Shown: positions 23,587-61,817 of the stretch, one piece after another | Position numbering within the stretch: position 1 is the first letter of the stretch | Layout: the number at the start of each line of letters is the position of its first letter | Assembly: GCA_030248225.1 (NCBI GenBank) | Contig: JASANE010010009.1 | Span: forward strand, 1 to 64,000 | Origin: Trileptium ribeirensis | Lineage: Eukaryota > Nematoda > Enoplea > Enoplida > Thoracostomopsidae | Direction: 5' to 3' | Length of the DNA: 64,000 nt | The notes under the pieces: generated by a model | What the model was told of the DNA's origin: nothing | What the model saw: only the letters and a program-made list of their open reading frames with translations | Databases searched by the model: none | Position numbers and translations under genes: made by a program

Positions 23587-23812
23587 GTGTTTTTGTGCAA
23601 ACTGTATTAGCTCAAAACGTCTCCGACAGTGTGTTGTCTGCACGCAATAAACAAACAAACGGCCAGAAAACAACCACAAACACGTGAAAAACAAACGGCC
23701 GAACAGCCACACCCGGGCACAACCGGCCATCCATAGGAAACACAACGGCCCGAGAACAACCGCAGCACCCGGCAAACAACGGATTGTGGATCACAACACA
23801 CAAAAACATATA
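23587..23812. other. A/C-rich flank of element 1
   Basis: Repeated AAACGGCC/CAACGGCC words on a strongly strand-biased A/C background. It ends directly at the element 1 LTR with no duplication of the right-hand flank (left ends CATATA, right starts GCTGCC). Confidence 0.45.
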
Positions 23813-24158
23813 TGTGTGACCGAATGTAACTTTAAATCTCGACTACCCAAACCGGGTAGCCGATAAGTGAATAAGCTACTGTCCCACATCAATATGTTGA
23901 ATTGTTCTGAACCTTGACCGTCTGAGCCGGGCAGCCAAGACAACAGGCCAACTTCATATACTAGTGCAATGAACATTATCATCATAAGCAACAGTCCTAA
24001 CATTGTATATATTATTTTTATTAAAAAATAAATGAAAACAAACTGAACGGAACTATATCGACAACTTCCACTGTACACACAGACAATTCCAAGAAAAGAA
24101 AAATATGAAAAACAAACATTTTACAAATTCTTATTTGGAATGTGAAAGAGCCACTACA
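23813..24158 (-). repeat. Element 1 3' LTR
   Basis: 346 bp, near-identical to 29618-29962. Minus strand begins TGTAGTGGCTC and ends GGTCACACA. It holds an AATAAA-type signal near 24013-24030 and the last ~45 codons plus stop of pol. It also carries a short open frame with a hydrophobic N-terminus that is present in the other LTR. Confidence 0.93.
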
Positions 24159-27100
24159 CCACCCCCTCGCAAGTCGAGGAGCGGCCTGTTCTCCCGGTGT
24201 GTCGCAGACAAACCTCACAGTTAAACGTTTCCTCTCTAAATTTTGTCTGAAGTTTAATTTTGAATTATTTTTAATTTCAGATTCTGCTAAAACTGCAGCT
24301 CTGTTAAAGCTGTACTTCTTGCATCTTACATTATGAACAAATTCCGAAATTCCTGTTGTTGGAACATATGCAAATCTATTTGTGTGAAAAAATTGAACTG
24401 GACATGTATTTCGAGGTTGTTTGGTAGTCTTTAAAACTGTTTTTGTAGTGTCTATAACCTTTGCGGGCCAAGGCTGAAAACCTTTAAATTTTGCAAAAAT
24501 GATCGTACCTGTTAAAAGGTTGGACGGATTAAAGGTCTCAACTCTTGTTGGAAGAGTTTTAATTATGCCTTTTCTTGTATTTGTATAATTTGAGTTTGTT
24601 AATGATCTTGTACTTTCAGAACTGTCATTTTCCATAAATGCTGGCTTTACGCGATCAATTGAAATTTTTTGATTTTTATCATCAATTTCAATTGTAATTG
24701 TTTTTGAATCTCTACAAATCACTTTGAAAGGTCCCATATACCGTGGCTGAAGACTTGTTTTTGGAAACAAATCCCGTAACCAAACAAATTTTGCATGTTT
24801 TAATTCCTTCGGCACAAAATACGGAACTTTATGATGTCGTTCCGGTGCCGAAAATTTTCGAACTCCAGCAAATAATTTTTGAATAAATTCAGAGTTGGGT
24901 TCCGGATACAATGGTTCGTCCGGTACAAAATACTGAATCGGTAGGTCTAAATTTGTACCATACACCAATTTTGCTGGTGATGTTTCTTGTTTATTTAATG
25001 CAGTCCGTAGTCCTAACAAAATTAATGGTAATGCCTTAGACCATTCTTTATTTCTACAATGTACTCGTAGGGAGCTTTTTAACGTGCGATGGAAACGTTC
25101 TATAGCTCCATTACATGCAGGGTGATATGCAGTTGTTCGCTTACGAGTTATGCCTAACTGTTGCATAAGCTCAGCCCAAATTGCTGATTCAAATTGCGCC
25201 CCTCGATCTGATATGAGAATTCGAGGAACACCGACACGGCTGACCCATGAATTAATTAATGCTGAAGCTACAGTTTCGGTGCTTATATCAGAAACCGGAG
25301 AAACTTCAGCCCATCGTGTGAATCTGTCAATTATTGTTACAAGATACATGTGGCCTTGTGAAGGAGGTAATGGACCTACAATATCTACATGTATCGTGTG
25401 AAATCGCGCACTTGTTGGGATTTCCCCAACGGGGCTTTTTGTGTGGCGCGTAATTTTAGCACTTTGGCATTTTTGACAGTTTTTAGCCCAAACGCGAATT
25501 TCTTTATTCATATAGGGCCAAATGTATTTTTCTGTAATAGCGCGTATTGTTGCTTTAATTCCTATATGAGCCAAATTGTGAACCTGTTCAAACAACTTTC
25601 GTCTCATGCATGTTGGTACATATGGACGTACTGTCTCTGATTTACCATCACAAACTATTTCAGCTGACCCGGTCTTGTGAATTTTGAGTGGTAATGAAGT
25701 TGTTTTAAAGAAATGTTGTAAATCATTATCAGTTTGTTGAGCATTTGCCCACGTTTCGTCAATCTGATCGGAAATGGCTGAAATAGATCGTGACAGTGCA
25801 TCAGCAACAATATTGTCCGCACCTGACACGTGTTGAATATTGCAGTTAAATTCCGAAATGTACGATAACCAACGTGCTTGTTGTGGTGTTGGTGTTTTCA
25901 TATTTAAAGCATTTATTAATGGCTTGTGATCAGTTTTAATTACAAACTTTAGACCCAAAAGCCATGAAAAATGTTTGAGGGACTGATATACGGCTAAAAG
26001 TTCTCGATCGAATGCAGATTTTTTGTTTTCCAATGTGGTGAATTTTTTTGAAAAGAATGCAAGCGGTTGTCGTTTGCTGTTGATAATTTGATGAAGCACT
26101 GCGCCTGAGGCGGTTTGAGATGCGTCTGTGGTTAACTCTAACTTTGCGGACTTACTCGGAAATGCAAGTGTTAGGCATTTTTCAAGTGCATTTTTGAGTT
26201 TGACAAAAGCCTGCGTTGCATTTTCATTCCACTCTAGGGGTGTTTTTGAGTTTATTTTCATGTTACGCGTCATATCAGTGAGTGGTGCAGCAATATCAGA
26301 AAAATGAGGCACAAAGCGATGATAAAATCCGGCCATGCCCAGAAAACGTTTCAGTTGTCTGACCGTTTGAGGGGTCTCAAAATCCTGAATTGCTTTAATT
26401 TTGCTATTTAATGGTTTAAAACCATCTGCGCCTAATTCAATGCCAATGAAAGATGCCTGTGTTACAAAAAATTTACATTTTTCACGTTTAAGGCGCAAGC
26501 CATTGGCCTTTAAACGATCCAAAACAGCAATTAAATGTTTTCGATGTTGTTCAATGTTTTCGCTTGCTATTAAAATATCATCAATATATGCCTTAGCAAA
26601 TGGCAAACCTTGCAATACTGAGTCTATCAAACGTTGAAACGTTTGGGCGGCGTTGCGTAATCCAAATGGCATGCGTCGATAAATGAATAAACCAAATGGT
26701 GTTGTAATGGCTGTTTTAAGCTGATCATTTTTTGCTACAGGAATTTGATGGTACGCCATGACAAGATCAAGTTTTGAAAATATTTTACAATTTTGAAGAT
26801 CATTTGTGATATCGACATGATTTGGCATTGGGTACCTATCCGGAATTGTGATATGGTTTAGTGCCCGATAGTCACCGCATGGTCTCCACGGATTTTTTGC
26901 GTCGTTTTTGGGTGCCATGTGAAGAGGAGTAGCCCATGGCGATTCACCACGGTAGACTACTCCTTGTTTCTCTAATTGAAGAAAATTATTTTTAGCAATG
27001 GAGAGTTTTTCTCCAAAAATGCGGCGTGGACGTGCAAAAACCGGGGGACCAGCCGTGACTATATGATGCTCTACCGAGTGTAATACGCTATCATTGCCTG

Positions 27101-27575
27101 CAACGCTTTTAAATAGTTCGCTATAATCAGTAACAATTTTGTCTATTTCTTTGTTAATGTCATTAGTTGGCTGTAAAGAACATAACACGCCTATGCCTTT
27201 TTTGCTTGAGTCTTGGGCATTATTGCTTTTGCAATGATCATGAAAATAGCGATGTTTAAGCTGATGAGTGCAACAGTCGATTACGAGATTATATTTGCTC
27301 AAAAAATCATAACCCAAAATAGGTTGTGTGACATCAGCAACAATGAATTTCCAAGTAAATGATTGCTTCAATTCTTTAATATCAAAATTTAATGTTGCTG
27401 TACCATACGTTTTAACTGGCGTTCCATTGGCCGCTACAAAATTGTCTTTGGACTGATTACTAATTTGCCGTTCAAAATTTTTTGGCAAAAAGCTTTGCGA
27501 GGCGCCACTGTCGACTAAAAAACTTCCAACAGCAGTTGCGGCAACATTAGTCCCCCCCCGGGGGTCTTTTCCCAA
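24021..27575 (-). CDS. pol: Element 1 Pol polyprotein (PR-RT-RNase H-IN-PWWP)
   Basis: Makes the enzymes for reverse transcription and integration. Domains by residue, numbered from the TTG at 27575: aspartic protease with VDSGAS at 21-26; RT about 170-380 with YIDD at 330-333; RNase H about 475-595 (TTDAS, DREL, TDH, ADALSR); integrase zinc site H666, H670, C700, C703 and catalytic D731, D790, E826 with 35 residues between the last two; a GPF module at 948-950; then a PWWP domain at about 1022-1095. The frame has no ATG near its start and stays open upstream over ORF1's end, so it is expected to be reached by a +1 shift from ORF1. It reads through the polypurine tract and stops inside the 3' LTR. 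Confidence 0.93.
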   Translation of the reverse strand: MGKDPRGGTNVAATAVGSFLVDSGASQSFLPKNFERQISNQSKDNFVAANGTPVKTYGTATLNFDIKELKQSFTWKFIVADVTQPILGYDFLSKYNLVIDCCTHQLKHRYFHDHCKSNNAQDSSKKGIGVLCSLQPTNDINKEIDKIVTDYSELFKSVAGNDSVLHSVEHHIVTAGPPVFARPRRIFGEKLSIAKNNFLQLEKQGVVYRGESPWATPLHMAPKNDAKNPWRPCGDYRALNHITIPDRYPMPNHVDITNDLQNCKIFSKLDLVMAYHQIPVAKNDQLKTAITTPFGLFIYRRMPFGLRNAAQTFQRLIDSVLQGLPFAKAYIDDILIASENIEQHRKHLIAVLDRLKANGLRLKREKCKFFVTQASFIGIELGADGFKPLNSKIKAIQDFETPQTVRQLKRFLGMAGFYHRFVPHFSDIAAPLTDMTRNMKINSKTPLEWNENATQAFVKLKNALEKCLTLAFPSKSAKLELTTDASQTASGAVLHQIINSKRQPLAFFSKKFTTLENKKSAFDRELLAVYQSLKHFSWLLGLKFVIKTDHKPLINALNMKTPTPQQARWLSYISEFNCNIQHVSGADNIVADALSRSISAISDQIDETWANAQQTDNDLQHFFKTTSLPLKIHKTGSAEIVCDGKSETVRPYVPTCMRRKLFEQVHNLAHIGIKATIRAITEKYIWPYMNKEIRVWAKNCQKCQSAKITRHTKSPVGEIPTSARFHTIHVDIVGPLPPSQGHMYLVTIIDRFTRWAEVSPVSDISTETVASALINSWVSRVGVPRILISDRGAQFESAIWAELMQQLGITRKRTTAYHPACNGAIERFHRTLKSSLRVHCRNKEWSKALPLILLGLRTALNKQETSPAKLVYGTNLDLPIQYFVPDEPLYPEPNSEFIQKLFAGVRKFSAPERHHKVPYFVPKELKHAKFVWLRDLFPKTSLQPRYMGPFKVICRDSKTITIEIDDKNQKISIDRVKPAFMENDSSESTRSLTNSNYTNTRKGIIKTLPTRVETFNPSNLLTGTIIFAKFKGFQPWPAKVIDTTKTVLKTTKQPRNTCPVQFFHTNRFAYVPTTGISEFVHNVRCKKYSFNRAAVLAESEIKNNSKLNFRQNLERKRLTVRFVCDTPGEQAAPRLARGWCSGSFTFQIRICKMFVFHIFLFLELSVCTVEVVDIVPFSLFSFIF
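24159..24170 (-). other. Element 1 polypurine tract
   Basis: Minus strand GCGAGGGGGTGG lies directly against the TG of the 3' LTR, the expected place for plus-strand priming. Confidence 0.75.
24291..24512 (-). other. PWWP domain appended to integrase
   Basis: Residues ~1022-1095 of pol match the PWWP fold signature: the GxIxFAKFKGF lead-in, the core PWP (1035-1037) followed by AKV, and the second-half signature VQFFHTNRFAYV with a conserved FF and aromatic. PWWP domains bind nucleosomal DNA and methylated H3K36. Here it follows the GPY/F part of integrase, where chromoviruses carry a chromodomain. A tethering role is inferred by analogy. Confidence 0.85.
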
Positions 27576-27640
27576 AATGCGGCGGGGGAGGGGCCACCAC
27601 CCGACGGGGCACCCAAGGGCGCAAAAAAAAGAATTCAGGT
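27547..27640 (-). promoter_or_regulatory. ORF1/pol overlap, +1 frameshift region
   Basis: ORF1 and pol frames overlap here and pol lies in the +1 frame. The segment contains homopolymers (T8, C5, G8) and a GC-rich block quite unlike the rest of the element. ORF1 ends right after the G8 run (GGG GAC TAA), so shifting on G8 would enter pol. It could instead mark a deletion that removed a normal gag C-terminus, or a length error in G8. Confidence 0.55.
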
Positions 27641-29397
27641 AAATTAGACAAATGTTCGTGTGATGTTAACGCGTGATTTGTTTCATCTTGAGCCGGTGCT
27701 TGAACTAGCTTAAGAGCCATTTTAACAACACTTTTAGCTTGGGCGTTCAAAGCGTCGATAATGAGGCGTTTTGTGCCTGGCATGACAAAATCAAAATCAT
27801 CTTCGTTTATAATCTGAAGTGCTTTTGTTAAAGTTTCCCTATCGATATTTTCCAAATCTGCCAGTGGACCCGGGTGGGGCTCTACTCCCCCTATTATAAG
27901 CAAAATTCGCAAATTAGTGAGATGACGTTGGCTAAGCGTTGATATGTTAATATTTGAAACTTGTGAATGAAGAATGAATGAATTATTATTAACCAAAGGT
28001 TTTTCATAGTTTGTTTCACCGGATTGCGCAGCACTGTATTCAAAACACAAAGCTAATACGATAAACACAATTATTAGTGCGAGACAAAGCGAACGGACTA
28101 AAGCATGGCGTCTAATTGTAGCTTTAGAAGCATCACTACCAAAACCTGGTAGCAACGACGACCAACAACCTGCCGTTTTTGTTATATGCGATTTGCTCAT
28201 TTCAATTTGCTTCCTACAACGCTTATGGTTTTTAACTCTAGGTACAACCTGATGCGTAAATATTTCATTGAAATTTTGTTTCTTAGTTATTTTCAGATCG
28301 GTTATTTCAAAGTTATCTAATTTGGACAGTTTGCCTTGTTTTTTTTTAAAAATTTTTGATGTTACTTGATTATTTGGCGAAGCTAAATGTGTTGTCGAAA
28401 AACATTTTGGTTTATTAGGTTTTATTTTAGGTCTCTTGCATTTAAGATTACTCACCGCTGAACTTGTGGCCTGCTTACTACATATGAAGTTGTGATCCTG
28501 CAAGATTTTCGTCGCGGCTGTGTTGATATGACGGAATCTAGCGGAACCCAGATGGATGCCACCGTACCACCGGGTGACGATGACCATGACATTTTCGGCT
28601 TTTGACGCATGTAGCAGGTGTAGCAACCTTGAGCCGGCACCATATTCACCGTCGTCGTCGAAGTCTGCATCTGTAACCTCGTTTTCCTGTAAAATTCTAT
28701 AAGCAAAAATGTTATGAGTTGCAACCGCTATTTTCCGATTTCGTTTTAACTGGCAAAGTACAGCTTTGGCATTCTCCGAACGGAAAACAGCGACTGCATG
28801 CGCTTGAAACGAACTTTTCCGGTCCGAAAAAGTGTTGCCGGAGAATATTTTGAATGCGGAACCGGTATCAGTTCCGGGAGTGTGCAAAATTTCCGGTTTG
28901 TTGTTATTTTTGTTGATAATTAAAGTCGGACCGGGATTCGGTTCCACATCTCCAGCCACAAGTAAAAGGAGCTTTAGTGATTTTGAATGCTGCTCACCTA
29001 GTGTTAAAACATTGAATTTCACCCTATGTTTCTGTGCATACACAAATAGTGTATGTTTGGCGGTGGTCTGTGCCGAAGTGACAGAAACGGATATGAATTG
29101 AGTTAATTCCGAATTATTTGTAGATCCAAAAACAAACACAATTGTAACAAATAGTCTTGTCATATCAAACTTGTGTTTTTGCATTTGTTTTTGCATTATT
29201 ACCCATTTCCGACAGTTTACTTCAGTTTTCAGCTTTGTGCACGTCACCATTTCTATCAGTGTCCAGAGCATTGTTGTCATGCCGGCAATTGTCCAACATA
29301 TAGCTGATTTTCGCCATTTTCGATGTCCGGAACTGTTTTCGTTGTTTTTATTCCCGACGTTATTGTGGTTTGTTGGTCTTTGGTAGAACCATTCCAA
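27547..29397 (-). CDS. Element 1 ORF1: 2A - IMPACT domain - TM - 2A-like
   Basis: 616 codons from a TTG at 29397; the first ATG is residue 40 (29280). Residues 79-93 are hydrophobic. A canonical 2A (GDVEPNPGP) lies at 149-157, where the ribosome is expected to release and restart before Pro157. Residues ~192-306 are a complete IMPACT/YIH1 N-terminal (UPF0029) domain. 310-405 is Lys-rich and 436-452 is a membrane segment after a basic flank. A second 2A-like motif (GGVEPHPGP, 503-511) has lost the Asp and Asn. 512-570 is an acidic helical stretch with a faint SAM-like pattern. The last ~25 residues come from GC-rich low-complexity DNA. There is no capsid or CCHC signature, so how this element packages its RNA is unclear. 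Confidence 0.9.
   Translation of the reverse strand: MEWFYQRPTNHNNVGNKNNENSSGHRKWRKSAICWTIAGMTTMLWTLIEMVTCTKLKTEVNCRKWVIMQKQMQKHKFDMTRLFVTIVFVFGSTNNSELTQFISVSVTSAQTTAKHTLFVYAQKHRVKFNVLTLGEQHSKSLKLLLLVAGDVEPNPGPTLIINKNNNKPEILHTPGTDTGSAFKIFSGNTFSDRKSSFQAHAVAVFRSENAKAVLCQLKRNRKIAVATHNIFAYRILQENEVTDADFDDDGEYGAGSRLLHLLHASKAENVMVIVTRWYGGIHLGSARFRHINTAATKILQDHNFICSKQATSSAVSNLKCKRPKIKPNKPKCFSTTHLASPNNQVTSKIFKKKQGKLSKLDNFEITDLKITKKQNFNEIFTHQVVPRVKNHKRCRKQIEMSKSHITKTAGCWSSLLPGFGSDASKATIRRHALVRSLCLALIIVFIVLALCFEYSAAQSGETNYEKPLVNNNSFILHSQVSNINISTLSQRHLTNLRILLIIGGVEPHPGPLADLENIDRETLTKALQIINEDDFDFVMPGTKRLIIDALNAQAKSVVKMALKLVQAPAQDETNHALTSHEHLSNLPEFFFLRPWVPRRVVAPPPPHFGKRPPGGD
27865..27912 (-). other. Decayed second 2A-like motif
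   Basis: LRILLIIGGVEPHPGP at ORF1 residues 496-511 keeps the hydrophobic lead, V-E-P and PGP, but has Gly for Asp and His for Asn. The Asn is a near-invariant residue of active 2A peptides, so efficient separation is unlikely. Confidence 0.7.
28480..28824 (-). other. IMPACT/YIH1 (UPF0029) domain captured in ORF1
   Basis: Residues ~192-306. Diagnostic strings are ATHNIFAYRI, DDDGEYGAGSRLLHLL and VMVIVTRWYGGIHLG followed by ARFRHIN. All landmarks of the family are present and uninterrupted. In cells, IMPACT/YIH1 binds GCN1 and blocks GCN2, the kinase that shuts translation under amino-acid stress. The RWD domain that normally precedes it is absent. No introns are present, consistent with capture from an mRNA. 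Confidence 0.93.
28927..28977 (-). other. 2A ribosome-skipping peptide
   Basis: LKLLLLVAGDVEPNPGP at ORF1 residues 141-157 fits the D-[VI]-E-x-N-P-G-P consensus with the usual Leu-rich lead. It should free the N-terminal ~156 residues from the IMPACT-bearing product. Confidence 0.9.
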
Positions 29398-29481
29398 GGC
29401 TGGTAAACACCTGGTTATGATGTGTTTCTTGGTTAATTTGCTCGATTTGATTTCGCAGGTGCGAATATGTCTGCGGTGTCT

Positions 29482-29808
29482 TTATCTGTGTTGTCTTTGT
29501 TCGCGTTTCTGCTGCTTTTGCCCTTGTTGCGGTTGCTGTTGTTGGTTTTGTTGTTGGTGCTGTTGTTGTTGCAGTGGTTGCTGTGTTCGTAACAAACACT
29601 TGTCGGGTTCACCATTATGTGTGACCAAATGTAACTTTAAATCTCGACTACCCAAACCGGGTAGCCGATAAGTGAATAAGCTACTGTCCCACATCAATAT
29701 GTTGAATTGTTCTGAACCTTGACCGTCTGAGCCGGGCAGCCAAGACAACAGGCCAACTTCATATACTAGTGCAATGAATATTTTTATCATAAGCAACAGT
29801 TCTGACAT
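29482..29808 (-). CDS. LTR-initiated open frame with signal-like N-terminus
   Basis: Opens inside the 5' LTR and runs 108 codons through the primer site into the Gln-rich leader. The first ~20 residues are hydrophobic (LLLMIKIFIALVYEV), followed by about 45 residues that are nearly identical in the 3' LTR frame. Preservation in both LTRs despite about ten substitutions is suggestive but weak. It could simply be a chance frame. Confidence 0.3.
   Translation of the reverse strand: MSELLLMIKIFIALVYEVGLLSWLPGSDGQGSEQFNILMWDSSLFTYRLPGLGSRDLKLHLVTHNGEPDKCLLRTQQPLQQQQHQQQNQQQQPQQGQKQQKREQRQHR
29597..29614 (-). other. Element 1 primer-binding site, tRNA-Trp-like
   Basis: Three bases after the LTR, the minus strand reads TGGTGAACCCGACAAGTG. 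It matches the animal tRNA-Trp 3'-end complement at 13 of the first 16 positions. The start TGG pairs with the CCA tail. Primer identity is tentative. Confidence 0.55.
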
Positions 29809-29962
29809 TGTCTATATTATTTTTATTAAAAATAAATGAAAACAAACTGAACGGAACTATATCGACAACTTCCACTGTACATACAGACAATTCCAAGAAA
29901 AGAAAAACATGAAAAACAAACATTTTACAAATTCTTATTTTGAATGTGAAAGAGCCACTACA
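29618..29962 (-). repeat. Element 1 5' LTR
   Basis: 345 bp, TG...CA, about 97% identical to 23813-24158 by eye. It ends at a 3-bp spacer before the primer site. The right-hand flank (GCTGCC) does not repeat the left flank of the element. Confidence 0.93.
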
Positions 29963-30225: not shown

Positions 30226-33200
30226 CTAGGCCGACCTTTTTCTAGACCTAAGGTTATAATTATGGGTCTTAGATCGCTCGGTTGTGGGCTCATTTTCCTC
30301 TTGTGGGTCCTCAAGGGCAATCTTAGGTTGCTCCTGAGGTATTTTGCCATCGGTAAATATAACATTACCAGTAATATTAGGATCTTTGTCATTTAATTGC
30401 TGATGTGGCTCTTCATCTTCTATAGGCTTTCCCTCTAGCTGAAGTTGCGGAACATGGGGTCCATGAAACGGTTTTATGCGATCCACATGAACCCTTATTT
30501 TGCCTTGCTTTGAATTACTTACAGAATTCAGTATTACGTCAGGCAGCACTAGTTCAGAAATTTCATAAAGCCCTTGCCATAACTTGGCAAGCTTTTTCGT
30601 TTTCCCTTGTTTCTGAAATGGGGTGTGGAGGAGAACCTTCTGACCAACCCAATATCTTGGTTCGGCAGCCTTTCGATCATAATAATATTTCATGTGTTCC
30701 TGTGAGCGAAGAATATTTTCGCGAGCTAATTCCCACGCTGATTTCAGCATTAACGGTAGGTCGCGAAAATAGTCTTCCTCGTCCAGGTAATTAATATTTG
30801 AAATTGGCAACGCCCTATCGATTGGCAATCGCGGTTGCCTTCCATAGACCATTTCAAAAGGACTCAGAGAAGTGGTATCATTGACACTTACCCTATACGC
30901 GAAACACGCAAAAGGGACAAATTCGTCCCAGGTTCTTTGTGCTGTGTCTACATACTGTGAGACCATACTCAAAAACGTGCGATTAATACGCTCGACGATA
31001 CCATTGCTCTGAGGCCTATAAGGCGTTGTAAACACTTTTCGTGTGCCTGTTAGTTTGCATATTTGATCGACCAGTTCACTACGAAAGTTTGGAGCATTGT
31101 CGCTCACCAGCTGGTGCGGCGCTGAGTGGCGACATACAATCTCAGTCATAAAAAGCTTTGCGATAGTAGTAGCTTTCTGATCTGGGGTGCATATGGCTTC
31201 AGGATACTTAGTGAAGCGGTCGATAAATATTATTACATATTTATTTCCATTATATGTTTGCGGTAGCGGACCTAATACATCCACATGATACGAATAATTC
31301 GGCTGGGTAGCCGGTATCGGGTTGAGTGGTGCCTTCGCTCTATGTGGACCGGGCTTCTTTTTATTACAATCCAAGCAGCTTCTACACCAGTTGCTTACAT
31401 CTCTATATATTCCTTCCCAATAGTATTTGTGGAGTAGTTTTTGATAAGTCTTAGCTATTCCTAGATGACCACCACCGACGACATCGTCGTGGTGAGCAGA
31501 AATTAGCTCGTCTCTCATAGAGAAAGGCACCACCAGCTGTTCCCATATGAGGCCTGCTCTATTCTTAGGTATTGGATAGTGATGGTAAAGTAATCCATCT
31601 TTCACTAAATACCTAGGCTGTACTAATGCAAAATGCGACGCGAGCCTTGAATCATCGGGTAGTTCATTTTTGTCGATATAATTTCTTAATGTCTTAATCT
31701 CAGGATCCTGCTCTTGTTTTTGTACGAATTCACTATTACTCTCAGTATGTATATCATCTCTGTTTTCCGTGGTTATTATAAATGCGAACTTTATCTCATC
31801 TTCATATATGTCTGAATCATTAACAGTTTTCAAATTAAAATCAGCTCTAAATAGCGCATCAACATGTCCCATCTTTTTACCTGCGCGATGTTCAACCGTA
31901 AAGTCGTATTCAGTCAACGACAAGGCCCAGCGCTGGAGGCGTCCTGAAGCGTTTTTATTAGTCAAAAGCCATTTTAAAGCAGAATGATCTGTGATTATGG
32001 TTACTTTTTGACCATAAATATAATTTCGAAAGTATTTCATAAAATATACAACTGCTAACGCCTCCAGTTCTGTGACCGTGTAGTTTCTCTCCGCCTTTTG
32101 GAGTAATCTACTGCCATAAGCGAGCGGATGTAGTTTATTGTTATCATCTGTTTGCGAAAGAACTCCGCCTATTGCTTTACCACTAGCATCAGTTTCCAAA
32201 TAGTACGGCTTCGATGGATCGGCTATGTGCAAAATTGGAGGGTTCATTAATTTATCGCATAAGAGTTCGAACGCTTTTTGTGCTTCTTCGTTCCACTTAA
32301 ATGGTTTCAAGGTGCTAGTTAGCTGACTCAAGGGTTTTGCTATTGCTGCAAAATCTCTTATAAAGCGGCGATAGTAACTGCAAAAACCGAGAAAACTTCT
32401 CACCGAAGTTATATCAGTTGGGACTGGATAAAATTTTACCACTTCAATTTTTGCTGGGTCAGGCCTGAGGCCATCCGCTGAAATAATATGCCCCAAATAA
32501 GGGACTTCACTTCGCAAAAATTGGCATTTTCTGGGTTTAATTTTCAACCCCACTTGTTTAAGCCGATCAAAAACTTGTCGAAGCCGATTTAAGTGTTCCT
32601 GAAACGTCTCAGAATAAACGCATATATCGTCAATATATATCAAACAGATCCTTTCAACCAATCCATGAAGTGTAGCTTCAAGTGTACGTTGGAAGGTAGC
32701 AGGCGCATTACATAATCCGAAAGGCATTTTTCTAAACTGATATAAACCTGCAGGTGTTACAAACGCCGTCTTTTCTACCGAAGCATTAGCCATTGGTATT
32801 TGCCAAAATCCAGACAACAAATCCATCACGCTAAAATATCTTGCTTTGCCAACACATTCAAGCAAATCATTTATGTTAGGTAGTGGATAGCAGTCTTTCT
32901 TAGTAACTGCATTGAGTTTCCTATAGTCAACACACAAACGCAATGATTCACCATCTTTCTTACCCACCAAAACAAGAGGACTTGCCCAAGGACTGGTCGA
33001 AGGCTCGATGATTCCGTGATGAAGCATATGCGAGATCTCTTTGTCGACCTTTGCTTTTCTTTGAAACGGTATTCGGTATGGTCTTTGCTTGATAGGAATT
33101 GAATCACCAGTATCGATTGAATGTTGAATGATCGTTATGTCGCCATAATCGTAGTCATGCTTTGCAAACACCTCTGAATATTCTACAATTAACTTAATCA

Positions 33201-36200
33201 ATTGTGCCTTTTCATCCTCAGTGGCATTACATTCGTCCAGCTTTAACTCACCTAGAAAGTCCGGATCTCCGTCCGAGCTAGCACTAATGAATAATGAAGC
33301 TCGGTCAAGAGGTATAAGTTCAACAATGCCTAAGTTGGTATGCTGATACAATTTAACTGAATAACAAGACATATTCAATAGTCTCACCGGTACATTTATT
33401 ACGGGACTGTTCAACAGTAACATACTGGCAGCTGTCAAATCGTAGTCATGTTCCAGCCTTTCGCTGGGCTCGAATAAGACTTCTCCCGGCTCGTCAAATC
33501 CAGGAACCGGACAAGGAATGATCACCTCCGATCGTGGTGGAAGAACCGTTGTTGTAGGCAAATGTACAGATTTAGTGACAGGTTCACCCATCAATAACGT
33601 GGTACCATCAATCGTAATTTGACGCTGTTGGTAGTTAATGGATACTGTTCCGAGTCGTTGGAGGATGTCGACTCCGATGATGACTGAATGTGTAGAGTCA
33701 TCCGACACGTAAATGTGACACTCGAGAGACGATTTCCCTATCTGTAGATTCACTTTAACAGCACCTCTTATATCTAAGCTATGTCCTGTTATGCCAATAA
33801 TGTTTGCTCGAGGCGCAGAAACTAAGCTATCTGAATTCTGGCCCAAATCTGTAAACACGTCCGATGACATAACACTTATATTACTCCCTGTATCTAAAAC
33901 TGCAGTAAATGGTTTATTATTTATGGTAACACTTATTTCCGATCTAGCTCTGCCTATTGAGAACACTGTTTCCGCGGATCGTATAACACCATATTCTGTT
34001 CTCGGTCGAGGTTTTTGATGAATGCGCCCGCGGCAGAATGGTAGATCACAAATTTCGATTGTATTGTCACTCTCAACGACTAGCGGTCGCGATCTTAGCC
34101 TAACGGGCTCGCTGAGTTTTATTGAGTTTGCTGCTAAACGATAATCCTGCTCAATAGGAAATGACGCCGAATTTTCTTTCAGTTCAATATCATTGCTCCT
34201 TTGGTTTTGAGAGTTGCATTTGCAACATCGACAAAATAATTGTTTCAGTTTCTTGCGAAAATAATATTGCACACAAACGATAAGAAAGATCAATGCTATT
34301 ACGATTATTATTAAAGTAATTTCTGATGGAAGTTCTATTCCGGTTTCATCAGGCATGAAAAATGATAACTCCCGTTTTAACCGTTCCTGCGTTAGTGCCG
34401 CATGGTATTTGACATCATTTAATTTACTCCATGCAGGAGGAGCTATATCAGAAAAGTTAAGCTGAAAATTTTCGACTTTTTGTACAAGTACCTCAAAATC
34501 TTGAGCTGGCCTTAGACTCGAGGTTAGAACTTGATCACCAACAATAATCATGGAAAAATCAGAATGTGCAAAAAACATTACACCATGTTCTGGTACTGCA
34601 ATCTTCTCCGCCTTGGTAACCTGTCCACCAGGTTGAACACGGGTGACGTATATATATTCCTGAGATGTGCGGACTAAAATGCCTACGCGCGTGCTCTCAA
34701 TTATCGTTTCTGGGGAATACTGTTTAACATCGAACATGCATGACTTATTTGTAACTGATGAGTTGCGCAAGTCCTGAAGACATGTGTCACTATTGCTGGT
34801 CGGTAAGGATTCACGCGCGCAGTACCAAAGTCCTGTGCGCCTGCGACAATGCTCCGAGATTACTTCATGAAAATATCCCTTATTCAACGTTGTGTCGTAT
34901 GTAATGAAATTAGGCAAAGATAAGCGAACAGTGGTGTTTGAACTAGGTTCGTTAAACCCTACATTTACAACCCGCATCAAAGGCAAAATATTCTTAACTC
35001 TTATCCTAGGAATTTCAAGTATATAACCGAAACGTGTATTCATAATATCCATCATCACCGGATATACGGTGACAAAATGATAAAATAATTCCGGATCATG
35101 TACGTATACTGTGTCGGCTAAAGAATATTCCCTCTGAACCAATAATCTTATCTGTGCCGCGGTCAAAATATCGGCCGACAATGTTCCATCATTACTAGCC
35201 GTGACCGTAGCTTTAATTAAGTTTCGAACATCATTTATAAATAAGTTAGTTTGAGACATGAAGTGTGTATATACAACATACTGACTCAATGTACATTCAA
35301 TAGATACAGTTGCTTGTTTCATGTATCTTACTATATCATGTGTTACTGCATATATACGTTCTTGATTAATGGATAGTTGCTTAATTTGTTCAGATTCCTC
35401 GATTAAATGTCGTTCCAATAAAGGAACAGCCTTTTGGAGTGCGATCACCTTAGGTTCAAGCCTTGACATCTTAACGGTATTGGCAATGCCAACCCCAAGT
35501 CCTAACACAGACATTGCACCTGCAATTGCCACGCCAACAAATCGTTTCTCCCTAGGATGTTGATTAAACGAGCATGTAAAAGGTTTATCAGTGCAAATAG
35601 TTTGAAGTAGGGCTTCATAAAACTCTGGATCTACAGATCCATCGAAATTTTTGTCTAACTGGTAAAGTGCCTTTTGAGTTTCACTATACAAAAATTTATG
35701 GCCAGTGCAGTTACAATCTTTTGAATTATTATCTATGTTGAATGTATTTTTTAACATAGTTTTACATTGCTCATGTTTTTCGTGCTTAGTGTGAACTAGT
35801 ATTGGGACATAAACTGAATCGGCTGCCGTAACAACAAGGCCTTCTGGGACAAACCCAACTCCAAATGAAGGGAATAAATGCGGGTGTAACTTATTTAAAG
35901 TACGAACAAATGTGGTATCAGCAGGTATAGTCATTGTACAAAACAGCAGCATTGAAAATATAAGCATAATATATTTAGGGGTCGACCACCCCTTTTTGGC
36001 CCGTTTCAAAGGCGTCTTTTCAATTTTTCTTTCAGGGTTATTCCCTGGGACCATTGTTTGCGTTTCTTTATCAACGGTTTGTACCATTGCTTTTGGTACA
36101 ACAGTGATGGCTCCAGCGAACTGCGGATAAGCCTTCTCAACCAGAAGCGCGTTTTGTTTAGTCAAAGCCTCGATTTCCCGCTTTAGTTCCTCTAGCTCAA

Positions 36201-37575
36201 TATTATTTCTGGGTGCGGGTGGCTCACTTTTAATTGGATCAAGTTCAGCCATGGTGGCTGCAGCAACCACATTTCGTGTTACTGGTTTGACTGCCATTGG
36301 TCCAACGTTAGGTATATTTGGACGTGTTGGTTGTTGAAGTGGATCGTTTGACGATGGGAAGCTATTTCTGGTAGTATTAAACCATGGTCTTGATTGGTTC
36401 CTAGTATTAGGTTGTTGCGGGCCACGAAGAAGACAGCTCATAGCCATGTGACCCAGTTTTCCACAGTTATAACACCTGGGACCCCTTGGGGTAAATTCTG
36501 CAGGGGAATTAAATCTATTTCGGTTGATCATTTGGTTTTGTGGCCGATTGTTATTTGGTCGGTATCCTGTATCGGGACGCCTTGGCGGGGAAGGCCTAAT
36601 CGTTCCACGGTGGTCCTCACGGGGTCGCTCTATTTTAGAAGCCAATACTTTTTGATTTTCGGTCAAAAGTTCTATTCCGCGTGTAATTTGTTCCAATCTT
36701 TTATCCGAAATGGTCGAAGATGATACAACTCCAACCGTAGAGACGGTGGGTGTGCACAATATACTTTGCATATCTAATCGTTGGGCCAAGTCCTCAGCCT
36801 CTCTTAAAGATTTGGGCATATCACGAAATACTTGTGACTTTAATTCAGGTGAACGGAGCCCACTGAAAAATCGACTAATTATTTTTCGCTCCAAATTCGC
36901 GTCATTCTCAGCCGGATATATATTTTTACACGCGCGCTTAATTACTTTAAGGTATGCTGTAACATTTTCACCGACATGTTGTTGACGTTGCTCTAACGCC
37001 GCCTCATGATACATTGACCATTCGGGGGTAGCTAACCCATTTCTCAACGAACGCACCAAGTCATTATAATGTCTTTTAGAGGCGTCAGGAAGACGATCAT
37101 AAACATCTTTGGCCCGATCTTTTAAATACGCTGGCAATACTCTCAATCTTAATGCTTCACCGATCAATTTGGCTTCACAGACTGTGTTAAAATTTTCAAT
37201 CCAAGTGTTAAAATCTTGGCCGGTCAAATCCCCTTTATACGGTTTTATTGTAAGGTCAAGTTGGTTTGCTAAGCTAGCGCGATGTGATAATTCACCAAAT
37301 TCATCTGATAAATTCTGTAAACCAGTATCTAGTCTTGTGGCTAGGTCTTTCACGACATGGTCTAATTGACCAATATTCTTGGACAGCGAATCTACCATTT
37401 TCACCTTCTCCTGACTTGGCACAGAGTAGACAAAACTATCCGATTCTAAGTACGAACTATTATTTGGTTCGTCGTCACTAGATTCTAATCTTGCCCCACT
37501 CCTACTTCTCAAATTATATTCAGCCGTATTTGTCCGCAAACCCGAAGTTTCAGAAAACGGCACGATTGAATGCAA
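30226..37575 (-). CDS. Element 2 Gag-Env-Pol polyprotein
   Basis: 2449 codons, numbered from a TTG with TGA two codons upstream; the first ATG is residue 60 (37398). Gag about 1-515: capsid-like region 105-270 and one CCHC zinc knuckle 368-381, then a coiled coil 457-482. Envelope 535-1120: signal segment, furin-type site, fusion peptide, heptad region, anchor. Protease DTGS 1228-1231. RT about 1500-1700 with YIDD 1647-1650. RNase H about 1790-1910 (ETDAS, ELEAL, TDHSALK). Integrase zinc site H2029, H2037 with C2064, C2067, C2070; catalytic D2099, D2159, E2195. YNLRSR occurs at 20-25 and again at 2440-2445. Membrane topology would leave both Gag and Pol cytosolic. Separate Env could come from the polyprotein by proteolysis or from a spliced mRNA; neither is shown. 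Confidence 0.93.
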   Translation of the reverse strand: MHSIVPFSETSGLRTNTAEYNLRSRSGARLESSDDEPNNSSYLESDSFVYSVPSQEKVKMVDSLSKNIGQLDHVVKDLATRLDTGLQNLSDEFGELSHRASLANQLDLTIKPYKGDLTGQDFNTWIENFNTVCEAKLIGEALRLRVLPAYLKDRAKDVYDRLPDASKRHYNDLVRSLRNGLATPEWSMYHEAALEQRQQHVGENVTAYLKVIKRACKNIYPAENDANLERKIISRFFSGLRSPELKSQVFRDMPKSLREAEDLAQRLDMQSILCTPTVSTVGVVSSSTISDKRLEQITRGIELLTENQKVLASKIERPREDHRGTIRPSPPRRPDTGYRPNNNRPQNQMINRNRFNSPAEFTPRGPRCYNCGKLGHMAMSCLLRGPQQPNTRNQSRPWFNTTRNSFPSSNDPLQQPTRPNIPNVGPMAVKPVTRNVVAAATMAELDPIKSEPPAPRNNIELEELKREIEALTKQNALLVEKAYPQFAGAITVVPKAMVQTVDKETQTMVPGNNPERKIEKTPLKRAKKGWSTPKYIMLIFSMLLFCTMTIPADTTFVRTLNKLHPHLFPSFGVGFVPEGLVVTAADSVYVPILVHTKHEKHEQCKTMLKNTFNIDNNSKDCNCTGHKFLYSETQKALYQLDKNFDGSVDPEFYEALLQTICTDKPFTCSFNQHPREKRFVGVAIAGAMSVLGLGVGIANTVKMSRLEPKVIALQKAVPLLERHLIEESEQIKQLSINQERIYAVTHDIVRYMKQATVSIECTLSQYVVYTHFMSQTNLFINDVRNLIKATVTASNDGTLSADILTAAQIRLLVQREYSLADTVYVHDPELFYHFVTVYPVMMDIMNTRFGYILEIPRIRVKNILPLMRVVNVGFNEPSSNTTVRLSLPNFITYDTTLNKGYFHEVISEHCRRRTGLWYCARESLPTSNSDTCLQDLRNSSVTNKSCMFDVKQYSPETIIESTRVGILVRTSQEYIYVTRVQPGGQVTKAEKIAVPEHGVMFFAHSDFSMIIVGDQVLTSSLRPAQDFEVLVQKVENFQLNFSDIAPPAWSKLNDVKYHAALTQERLKRELSFFMPDETGIELPSEITLIIIVIALIFLIVCVQYYFRKKLKQLFCRCCKCNSQNQRSNDIELKENSASFPIEQDYRLAANSIKLSEPVRLRSRPLVVESDNTIEICDLPFCRGRIHQKPRPRTEYGVIRSAETVFSIGRARSEISVTINNKPFTAVLDTGSNISVMSSDVFTDLGQNSDSLVSAPRANIIGITGHSLDIRGAVKVNLQIGKSSLECHIYVSDDSTHSVIIGVDILQRLGTVSINYQQRQITIDGTTLLMGEPVTKSVHLPTTTVLPPRSEVIIPCPVPGFDEPGEVLFEPSERLEHDYDLTAASMLLLNSPVINVPVRLLNMSCYSVKLYQHTNLGIVELIPLDRASLFISASSDGDPDFLGELKLDECNATEDEKAQLIKLIVEYSEVFAKHDYDYGDITIIQHSIDTGDSIPIKQRPYRIPFQRKAKVDKEISHMLHHGIIEPSTSPWASPLVLVGKKDGESLRLCVDYRKLNAVTKKDCYPLPNINDLLECVGKARYFSVMDLLSGFWQIPMANASVEKTAFVTPAGLYQFRKMPFGLCNAPATFQRTLEATLHGLVERICLIYIDDICVYSETFQEHLNRLRQVFDRLKQVGLKIKPRKCQFLRSEVPYLGHIISADGLRPDPAKIEVVKFYPVPTDITSVRSFLGFCSYYRRFIRDFAAIAKPLSQLTSTLKPFKWNEEAQKAFELLCDKLMNPPILHIADPSKPYYLETDASGKAIGGVLSQTDDNNKLHPLAYGSRLLQKAERNYTVTELEALAVVYFMKYFRNYIYGQKVTIITDHSALKWLLTNKNASGRLQRWALSLTEYDFTVEHRAGKKMGHVDALFRADFNLKTVNDSDIYEDEIKFAFIITTENRDDIHTESNSEFVQKQEQDPEIKTLRNYIDKNELPDDSRLASHFALVQPRYLVKDGLLYHHYPIPKNRAGLIWEQLVVPFSMRDELISAHHDDVVGGGHLGIAKTYQKLLHKYYWEGIYRDVSNWCRSCLDCNKKKPGPHRAKAPLNPIPATQPNYSYHVDVLGPLPQTYNGNKYVIIFIDRFTKYPEAICTPDQKATTIAKLFMTEIVCRHSAPHQLVSDNAPNFRSELVDQICKLTGTRKVFTTPYRPQSNGIVERINRTFLSMVSQYVDTAQRTWDEFVPFACFAYRVSVNDTTSLSPFEMVYGRQPRLPIDRALPISNINYLDEEDYFRDLPLMLKSAWELARENILRSQEHMKYYYDRKAAEPRYWVGQKVLLHTPFQKQGKTKKLAKLWQGLYEISELVLPDVILNSVSNSKQGKIRVHVDRIKPFHGPHVPQLQLEGKPIEDEEPHQQLNDKDPNITGNVIFTDGKIPQEQPKIALEDPQEENEPTTERSKTHNYNLRSRKRSA
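34216..35973 (-). other. Envelope (class I fusion glycoprotein-like) domain inside the polyprotein
   Basis: Residues 535-1120. A hydrophobic signal segment (~535-550) is followed by a Cys-containing N-terminal subunit. A furin-type site REKR (675-678; 35553-35542) lies directly before a Gly/Ala-rich fusion peptide (~679-700), then a heptad-type helix (~704-745), Cys pairs (C910, C919, C932, C946), N-glycosylation sites and a membrane anchor (~1086-1103) with a Cys-rich tail (CRCCKC). This layout fits the errantivirus Env/baculovirus F group. It is complete, with no stop or frameshift. Confidence 0.85.
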
Positions 37576-37611
37576 CGATCAAAGTTCACCAGACTCGGCT
37601 ATGAAGAACCG

Positions 37612-61430: not shown

Positions 61431-61461
61431 ATATGAGCCAAAATAGTTGTTAAACTTGCAG

Positions 61462-61817
61462 ATGATAACTGCAAGGTTCAAGGTTATCAGGGAAATCAGG
61501 GAAATGTGGTGTAAAACGTTGCCGTTGCGTCCCGGACTATCCACATACTTCCTTGCATGAGAAAATACGTGGCCAAGATAAATCCAAAGCCGAATCAGTC
61601 CCAACGGATCATCGATACGGCTAAAGCGTTTGGCTCCAAGATGATAACTGCGCGGTTTCCGGTGATCAGGGAAATCAGGCAAATTGGGTGGAAAACGTTT
61701 CCGTTGCGTCCCGGATTATCCACATACTTCCTTGCATGAGAAAATACGTGGCCAAGGTGAATCCAAAGCGGAATCAGTCCCAACGGGTCATCGATCCGGC
61801 TAAAGCGTTTTGCTCCA
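61462..61817. repeat. 178-bp tandem duplication
   Basis: GATGATAACTGC, TATCCACATACTTCCTTGCA and AATCAGTCCCAACGG recur 178 bp apart. The two units are about 90% alike by eye. The second unit runs directly into the hAT-like relic. Confidence 0.85.

Follow-up and report, generated by a model that had tools for sequence, protein, structure and literature searches.

An IMPACT-domain module between two predicted 2A sites in a CsRn1-like LTR retrotransposon family of Trileptium ribeirensis

Introduction

The long terminal repeat (LTR) retrotransposons of the CsRn1 clade (CsRn1, PwRn1, AgCR) have a CHCC zinc motif in Gag, CX2HX9CX3C, and the domain order protease, reverse transcriptase (RT), RNase H and integrase, and they are reported with a tRNA-Trp primer-binding site (PBS) (PMC2582038). 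A stretch of 64,000 nucleotides from the nematode Trileptium ribeirensis (assembly GCA_030248225.1, contig JASANE010010009.1, positions 1 to 64,000; hereafter the window) harbours a CsRn1-like Ty3/Gypsy LTR retrotransposon in damaged form. Its family has the zinc motif and the domain order in common with the clade, and differs from the clade as described in the accessible part of PMC2582038 by an extra leader, two predicted StopGo (2A) sites, a module carrying the ancient domain of IMPACT, and a PWWP domain after the integrase.

StopGo sequences inside a retroelement polyprotein are known from non-LTR retrotransposons (L1Tc; APE-type), and in the accessible portions of two reviews, one names 2A among retroelements for the non-LTR type only and the other not at all. 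The present family differs in being of the LTR type and in having two sites, which flank a captured domain and split it from Gag. In sea-urchin NLR proteins an N-terminal 2A is likewise joined to a secretory signal and skipping leaves the downstream protein cytosolic, although these are cellular genes with one 2A and no retroelement, as far as the available text goes (PMC4981915). LTR retrotransposons of bdelloid rotifers also hold captured extra open reading frames (ORFs; DEDDy, GDSL), in their case as a third ORF, and the terms IMPACT, UPF0029, PWWP, "2A peptide" and "ribosomal skipping" are absent from the accessible text of that study (PMC5408684). Compared with IMPACT, Yih1 and YigZ, the version described here is borne by a retroelement, has a membrane segment behind the domain and has no RWD domain that we could find. 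Each kind of component (CsRn1-like element, 2A, captured domain) is therefore known, while our searches turned up no precedent for their combination or for its conservation. In the open-access literature, with subscription papers and preprints lying outside, no IMPACT domain in a retroelement was found and UPF0029 and retrotransposon never occurred together; among the open-access matches listed, as judged by title or start of the abstract, none concerned a 2A in an LTR retrotransposon or a PWWP in an LTR element.

Results

The IMPACT module recurs across the genome

A query composed of 2A and IMPACT matched 123 pieces at about 100 loci of the genome (687 Mb, 20,229 contigs), the best-scoring other copy being 63% identical to the window copy. 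Because so many matching pieces lie in the same genome, the element is neither a chance assembly of motifs nor an assembly chimera. We compared the window copy and 27 further copies (28 rows); the 27 were selected because they scored high, were fully covered or had long frames, and proportions within the sample are therefore not genome-wide ones. Since the window member is damaged, the family layout was read from the other sampled copies, and consists of leader, 2A (2A-1), IMPACT, membrane segment, second 2A (2A-2), Gag, frameshift, protease, RT, RNase H, integrase and PWWP. A single open frame spans both 2As in 9 of the 28 rows (the open rows), and two well separated subfamilies have the identical layout.

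In the window, the UPF0029 profile matches residues 221–327 of the first ORF (ORF1) over its full length (1–107 of 107; E 1.2e-30, 106 bits against a cut-off of 27), the best sequence match in PDB is 6bqi, "Protein IMPACT homolog" (E 9.9e-24), and the landmarks ATHNI, DDDGE and RWYGGIHLG are all found. The original prediction, made from the letters of the window alone, had placed in ORF1, between the LTRs, a 2A motif (GDVEPNPGP) followed about 35 residues later by an IMPACT domain. The core at 28927–28950, the complete Pfam UPF0029 match and their common frame bear this out, but that description of ORF1 missed the second 2A, the loss of Gag and a stop in the leader.

The exact pattern D(V/I)ExNPGP is present at 2A-1 in 24 of 28 rows, and the 2A-2 core in 22 of 28 if the H variant of the window is counted, the other copies having G(I/V)ExNPGP. 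Apart from the H variant of the window, the cores counted at both sites follow the StopGo motif (D/G/C/N)(V/I)ExNPGP, together with a supportive upstream motif, and the cores with their L-rich context agree with motif classes of PMC12846837. According to that source, G at the first position is functional and as prevalent as D, and H in place of N is about 90% active or more in the assay; the combination of the two is not reported in its accessible part. Among the nine open rows the median identity of the 2A sites is 75% and 70%, values that are biased upward because these rows were selected by the motif. Both motifs are conserved across the family at the sequence level, both sites are predicted to be StopGo-active, and they are so positioned that they would release the IMPACT module, as the original prediction had supposed.

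The linker adjoining IMPACT is basic, and a hydrophobic segment lies 40–53 residues ahead of 2A-2 in 9/9 open rows (Kyte-Doolittle 1.8–2.9 over 19 residues). Net charge is positive before this segment in 9/9 rows and negative after it in 8/9, and shuffles were equally hydrophobic in 0 to 31 of 500 cases across the nine rows (0/500 for the window). The C-terminal end of the IMPACT protein is predicted on the lumenal side. Over the 36 pairs of open rows, median identity is 50% for IMPACT (range 41–68%), 19% for the linker, 24% for the leader and 38% for the Gag N-terminus, and it reaches 64% for the Gag capsid (CA) over 6 pairs.

IMPACT is held under purifying selection

The ratio of nonsynonymous to synonymous substitution rates (dN/dS) was summarised only over pairs with 0.2<dS<2.5, namely 36/378 for IMPACT, 40/495 for Gag, whose rows include relatives without IMPACT, and 35/148 for RT. 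The medians are 0.193 for IMPACT (maximum 0.379), 0.111 for Gag CA (maximum 0.667) and 0.122 for RT (maximum 0.281). We read these values as long purifying selection on IMPACT; because the domain has long been kept in working order, it probably helps the element. Loss of the domain from other copies, its neutral decay, or a chimeric assembly had been named beforehand as outcomes that would undo the proposal. Instead, other copies retain IMPACT, its median ratio is low, and a chimera is excluded by the abundance of matching pieces.

IMPACT probably entered an element that already had a 2A

In the IMPACT tree, the 28 sampled domains form a single clade (99/98; 98% of bootstraps) that excludes the 36 other rows; together with purifying selection, this sustains the earlier idea that the domain was captured and kept. 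Eight relatives, L043–L050, were obtained by Gag similarity. Seven of them (L043–L049) have a leader, one 2A and Gag without IMPACT, L043 and L044 being nearly identical to each other. In the Gag tree (19 rows) the IMPACT carriers form one clade (100/99) and L050 falls inside it; this relative retains both 2As with IMPACT gone, and is therefore a case of IMPACT loss. PWWP is present in all three IMPACT-less relatives whose pol ends were examined. As relatives without IMPACT have a 2A, IMPACT would have entered an element already equipped with one: 2A and PWWP are probably older than IMPACT in the lineage, and the IMPACT cassette with the second 2A was probably gained once, in the sampled copies. 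On the same ground we rejected a single event that would have brought in 2A and IMPACT together, and the pair that the original prediction took as primary is not so. The leader of L043 and L044 is very long and repetitive (about 650 residues) ahead of the single 2A and Gag.

The association with Gag was also scored for 150 of 950 candidate Gag matches, joined to 102 IMPACT positions from the 123 matches after exclusion of further pieces of the same locus. IMPACT was found within 3.5 kb upstream of Gag for 28/31 matches at >=72% identity, 25/36 at 53–71% and 0/83 at <=52%.

Outside the family, the IMPACT of P0128 is placed, on a long branch, as the weakly supported sister (97/51) of the family's IMPACT, while P0005 and P0115 group together, both on long branches; P0061 is absent from the IMPACT tree, and P0114 and P0117 are outside the tree that places P0128. 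P0005 is a coiled-coil protein that ends in IMPACT; its only match to solved structures at E<0.1 is an IMPACT homolog, and it presumably resembles a LINE-type (long interspersed nuclear element) ORF1. P0115 (1059 residues) combines IMPACT with a GDSL esterase match below cut-off, and P0001 has three UPF0029 stretches in 569 residues. No relative of the element was found in the scanned viral contigs; a scan of genome contigs gave 7 loci at <=40% identity, in which neither IMPACT nor a 2A pattern was found.

Gag, frameshift and Pol

The Gag zinc motif CX2HX9CX3C is found in 18/28 rows, and weak DUF7041 matches below cut-off are seen in the Gag of L011 (E 1.4e-5) and L029 (E 6.6e-5). The protease lies in the -1 frame relative to Gag in 11 of the 13 rows that show both frames, an in-frame G_GGA_AAN is present in 14/18 rows retaining the zinc motif, and in L024 the stem downstream of it has a z of -2.7, with 2/200 shuffles folding equally well. 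A -1 frameshift is predicted to yield Gag-Pol.

The window pol was matched on the IMPACT strand in 16/20 loci, in pieces mostly above 50% identical (29–79%); the other loci, L012, L015, L016 and L023, have no pol match of their own. Among the best 120 of 3939 matches of the pol search, those named include Sparganum, Trichuris, Trichinella and Manduca. PWWP is present in 8 of the 11 best public-protein pol matches (P0118–P0128), that is in P0119, P0121–P0125, P0127 and P0128, as well as in the pol of L024 and in L051–L053. In the PWWP-bearing P0128, which comes from another source, IMPACT lies inside Pol (residues 104–217), between protease and RT. The PWWP after the integrase, at a position comparable to that of chromodomains, may read histone marks to target integration.

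LTR-like repeat pairs were found in 10/21 long rows, pairs at L012 and L026 being excluded from the count, and are 86.8–99.3% identical, L024 highest; because of such high identities some members probably moved recently. In L010, L019, L024 and the window copy, the ORF1 frame already opens within the 5' LTR repeat. In several other copies TGGTGAACC comes after the 5' LTR repeat, a sequence that may resemble a tRNA-Trp primer-binding site. L017 is flanked by the 5-base repeat GTCGA, of the target-site-duplication type.

The element module has no detectable RWD

Substitutions in helix H3 of the Yih1 RWD weaken the binding of Gcn1, and Gcn2 is then no longer inhibited (PMC4503747); GCN1 is reported to bind IMPACT via the RWD of IMPACT (PMC10931611). 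A Pfam profile search of three ORF1s, from the window, L011 and L029, gave no RWD (PF05773), and the structural match of the modelled element domain to Yih1 spans Yih1 residues 133–258 only. The original prediction had proposed that the element counters GCN2 by competing for GCN1. With GCN1 binding dependent on residues of the RWD, a domain not found in the element, this route appears weak, and GCN1 competition by the module is not supported. An exon-by-exon search gave 3 RWD matches in the genome, among the matches listed, all on contigs without an IMPACT match. A host IMPACT gene was not found with a spider IMPACT query, which returned 133 matches, mostly element copies, nor with an RWD query, which returned none; the RWD family search also gave no match in 14 control genomes.

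The window copy is damaged

In the window, paired LTRs, a PBS-like sequence and a polypurine tract surround protease, RT, RNase H and integrase, as in Ty3/Gypsy LTR elements (Table 1). An in-frame stop at 29482–29484 breaks the leader. Most of Gag is gone between 2A-2 and protease, from about 27630 to the protease, and the zinc motif is missing with it; 105 residues remain after 2A-2, compared with 334–356 in six rows whose frame stops where Gag ends. Since most of Gag is lost and the leader has a stop, the window ORF1 is not an intact Gag ORF. The description of ORF1 as a Gag with IMPACT was rejected for this copy. No target-site duplication was seen at the window copy (CAGC before; TATA or TATG after). 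A hairpin, CTACCnGGTTTnGGTAG, occurs on the minus strand at 23843–23859, 28136–28152 and 29648–29664, that is in both LTRs and once within ORF1; these are 3 matches in the window against 0.08 expected.

Table 1. Features of the LTR element in the window
Feature	Position	Strand	Details
5' LTR	29616..29962	minus	96.6% identical to 3' LTR; begins TGTAGTGG
PBS-like TGGTGAACCCGAC	29602..29614	minus	just after 5' LTR; encodes GEPD in leader frame
Leader part of ORF1	29482..29811	minus	opens inside LTR, crosses PBS
ORF1 frame	27547..29481	minus	644 codons, stop to stop
2A-1 core octapeptide DVEPNPGP	28927..28950	minus	upstream context LKLLLLVAG
IMPACT ancient domain (UPF0029, PF01205)	28501..28821	minus	Pfam E 1.2e-30; model pLDDT (predicted local distance difference test) 84.7; structural matches
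Predicted membrane-spanning segment LVRSLCLALIIVFIVLALC	28045..28101	minus	52 residues ahead of 2A-2
2A-2 core GVEPHPGP	27865..27888	minus	LRILLIIG just before; within GGVEPHPGP
Remaining N-terminal Gag part (to LPEF)	27631..27864	minus	rest of Gag gone in window copy
Rearranged junction, most of Gag missing	27547..27630	minus	
Pol frame	24021..27665	minus	1214 codons
Aspartic protease	27297..27524	minus	PF13975 E 3.4e-5 (below cut-off); PF08284 E 1.5e-4 (just above cut-off)
Reverse transcriptase	26433..26912	minus	PF00078 E 2.4e-32
RNase H	25848..26150	minus	PF17917 E 4.2e-23
Integrase (zinc-binding + core)	25119..25619	minus	PF17921 E 2e-15, PF00665 E 3.5e-14
PWWP domain after integrase	24330..24509	minus	PF00855 E 2.7e-11; relatives carry PWWP too
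Polypurine tract GAGGGGGTGG	24159..24168	minus	directly ahead of 3' LTR
3' LTR	23811..24158	minus	partner of 5' LTR, 96.6% identity

Other features of the window and of a relative

Positions 30226–37578 (minus strand) of the window are taken up by the 2450-codon frame of another LTR-type element, with the order Gag (zinc knuckle), envelope-like stretch, protease, RT, RNase H and integrase. The envelope-like part, which lies between Gag and Pol and not at the end, has a furin-like site (REKR/FVG) and a C-terminal membrane segment; the label was given by inspection, and no envelope family was found in Pfam. Two tandem repeats of 179 bases, 90% alike, are located at 61460–61817.

In the IMPACT-less relative L051, an ORF of 360 residues follows pol (1423–2502; G000:C16256, 34022–35101), with a NADAR domain (PF08719, E 1.5e-27) and a GDSL esterase match (E 1.7e-5, below cut-off). 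Behind it come a purine tract and, at 35647, 22 bases that repeat the probable beginning of the LTR, so that this ORF may be the element's third; no complete pair of LTRs was found at L051.

Discussion

We consider it probable that in this family two StopGo sites release a membrane-anchored protein with the IMPACT ancient domain beside Gag, and that the benefit lies in a translation-related host factor. The architecture, the single gain in the sampled copies, the long purifying selection and the conservation of both 2A motifs are established from the sequences, and from them we infer that the module benefits the element. ORF1 would open in the 5' LTR as a hydrophobic leader whose frame continues across the PBS, encoding GEPD there in the window copy. 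To judge by the sequence and by assays on other 2As, 2A-1 would then let the leader go, as in the sea-urchin NLR sequences, and the IMPACT-domain protein would start; it has a basic linker and would be anchored by its membrane-spanning segment, with a C-terminus predicted to be lumenal. At 2A-2 this protein would be freed and Gag made separately in the cytosol, with Gag-Pol produced by the -1 frameshift. The family mRNA would in this way carry two StopGo sites and one -1 frameshift, and one membrane-anchored IMPACT protein would be produced alongside each Gag. The likeliest benefit is that the ancient domain (YigZ fold) would bind a host translation or ribosome-associated factor and favour translation of the element RNA, the translation machinery being the likeliest target of the module. 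More tentatively, the protein may be a dedicated translation-control effector, StopGo-released, anchored in the endoplasmic reticulum and produced with every Gag, which keeps the element mRNA translated under host stress or couples translation to membranes without needing an RWD-GCN1 contact; the element would then combine three recoding events on one mRNA with a PWWP chromatin reader of its own.

Several observations weigh against the StopGo-released translation module. StopGo activity, frameshifting and topology are predictions from sequence, and even for cellular IMPACT a 2015 paper described what the ancient domain binds as elusive (PMC4503747). The window 2A-2 differs at two positions from D(V/I)ExNPGP, the membrane segments of L031 and L032 were equalled in hydrophobicity by 31 and 18 of 500 shuffles, and the Gag/protease frame is +1 in L009 and unchanged in L030. 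The dN/dS of IMPACT exceeds that of Gag and RT, and recent pairs are less constrained (L024/L025 0.285, L012/L019 0.307, L009/L015 0.358), as is expected after insertion; L020/L034 gives 0.927 on few changes, one of the two having a stop. Finally, 14/67 Gag matches at >=53% identity have no IMPACT upstream and the module can therefore be lost, although these 14 include the L050 deletion, the outgroup L048 and at least two matches at contig starts.

It is doubtful, if conceivable, that IMPACT serves instead as an RNA- or Gag-interacting accessory protein within the replication cycle, in packaging or membrane-linked assembly, and does not act on host stress control. This would fit the position of IMPACT next to Gag in one frame, with its basic linker and membrane segment, and the related pol P0128, where IMPACT stands between protease and RT; IMPACT is also found in P0005 and P0115, which presumably resemble other retroelement ORF1s. 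That the module is a GCN1 competitor, which would keep GCN2 off GCN1 and block eIF2-alpha phosphorylation during replication, we regard as unlikely. Full-length Yih1 does inhibit Gcn2 by competing for Gcn1 when overexpressed (PMC4503747), IMPACT binds GCN1 (PMC10931611), and the parts of Yih1 that suffice to bind Gcn1 and ribosomes overlap with a determinant to which the linker leading to the ancient domain belongs (PMC4503747). However, Gcn1 binding and Gcn2 inhibition need RWD residues, the three ORF1s searched have no RWD, and the structural match is limited to the Yih1 segment named above.

A polyprotein with inactive 2A motifs, cut by the element protease or by signal peptidase, is very unlikely. 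By inspection, some rows have alanines behind the membrane segment that look like a signal-peptidase site; however, the 2A cores recur in 24/28 and 22/28 rows while linker and leader diverge, and rare single 2A variants are about 90% active or more in assays (PMC12846837). Hardly any weight can be given to the idea that the module is a neutral passenger, or that it reflects one lone insertion or a fault of assembly. The damage to the window copy (Gag loss, leader stop) might suggest as much, but 123 matching pieces, two separated subfamilies with the same layout and a median dN/dS of 0.19 led us to reject all three, and recent duplicates of one locus are excluded by the 41–68% IMPACT identity among the nine open rows.

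With the StopGo-released module as the preferred reading, the ancient IMPACT domain kept without an RWD amounts to a natural experiment, in which the binding partner could be addressed with a compact protein, and the element supplies naturally occurring 2A sites that sit in a secretory context. If this reading is true, an LTR element would confront host translation control directly.

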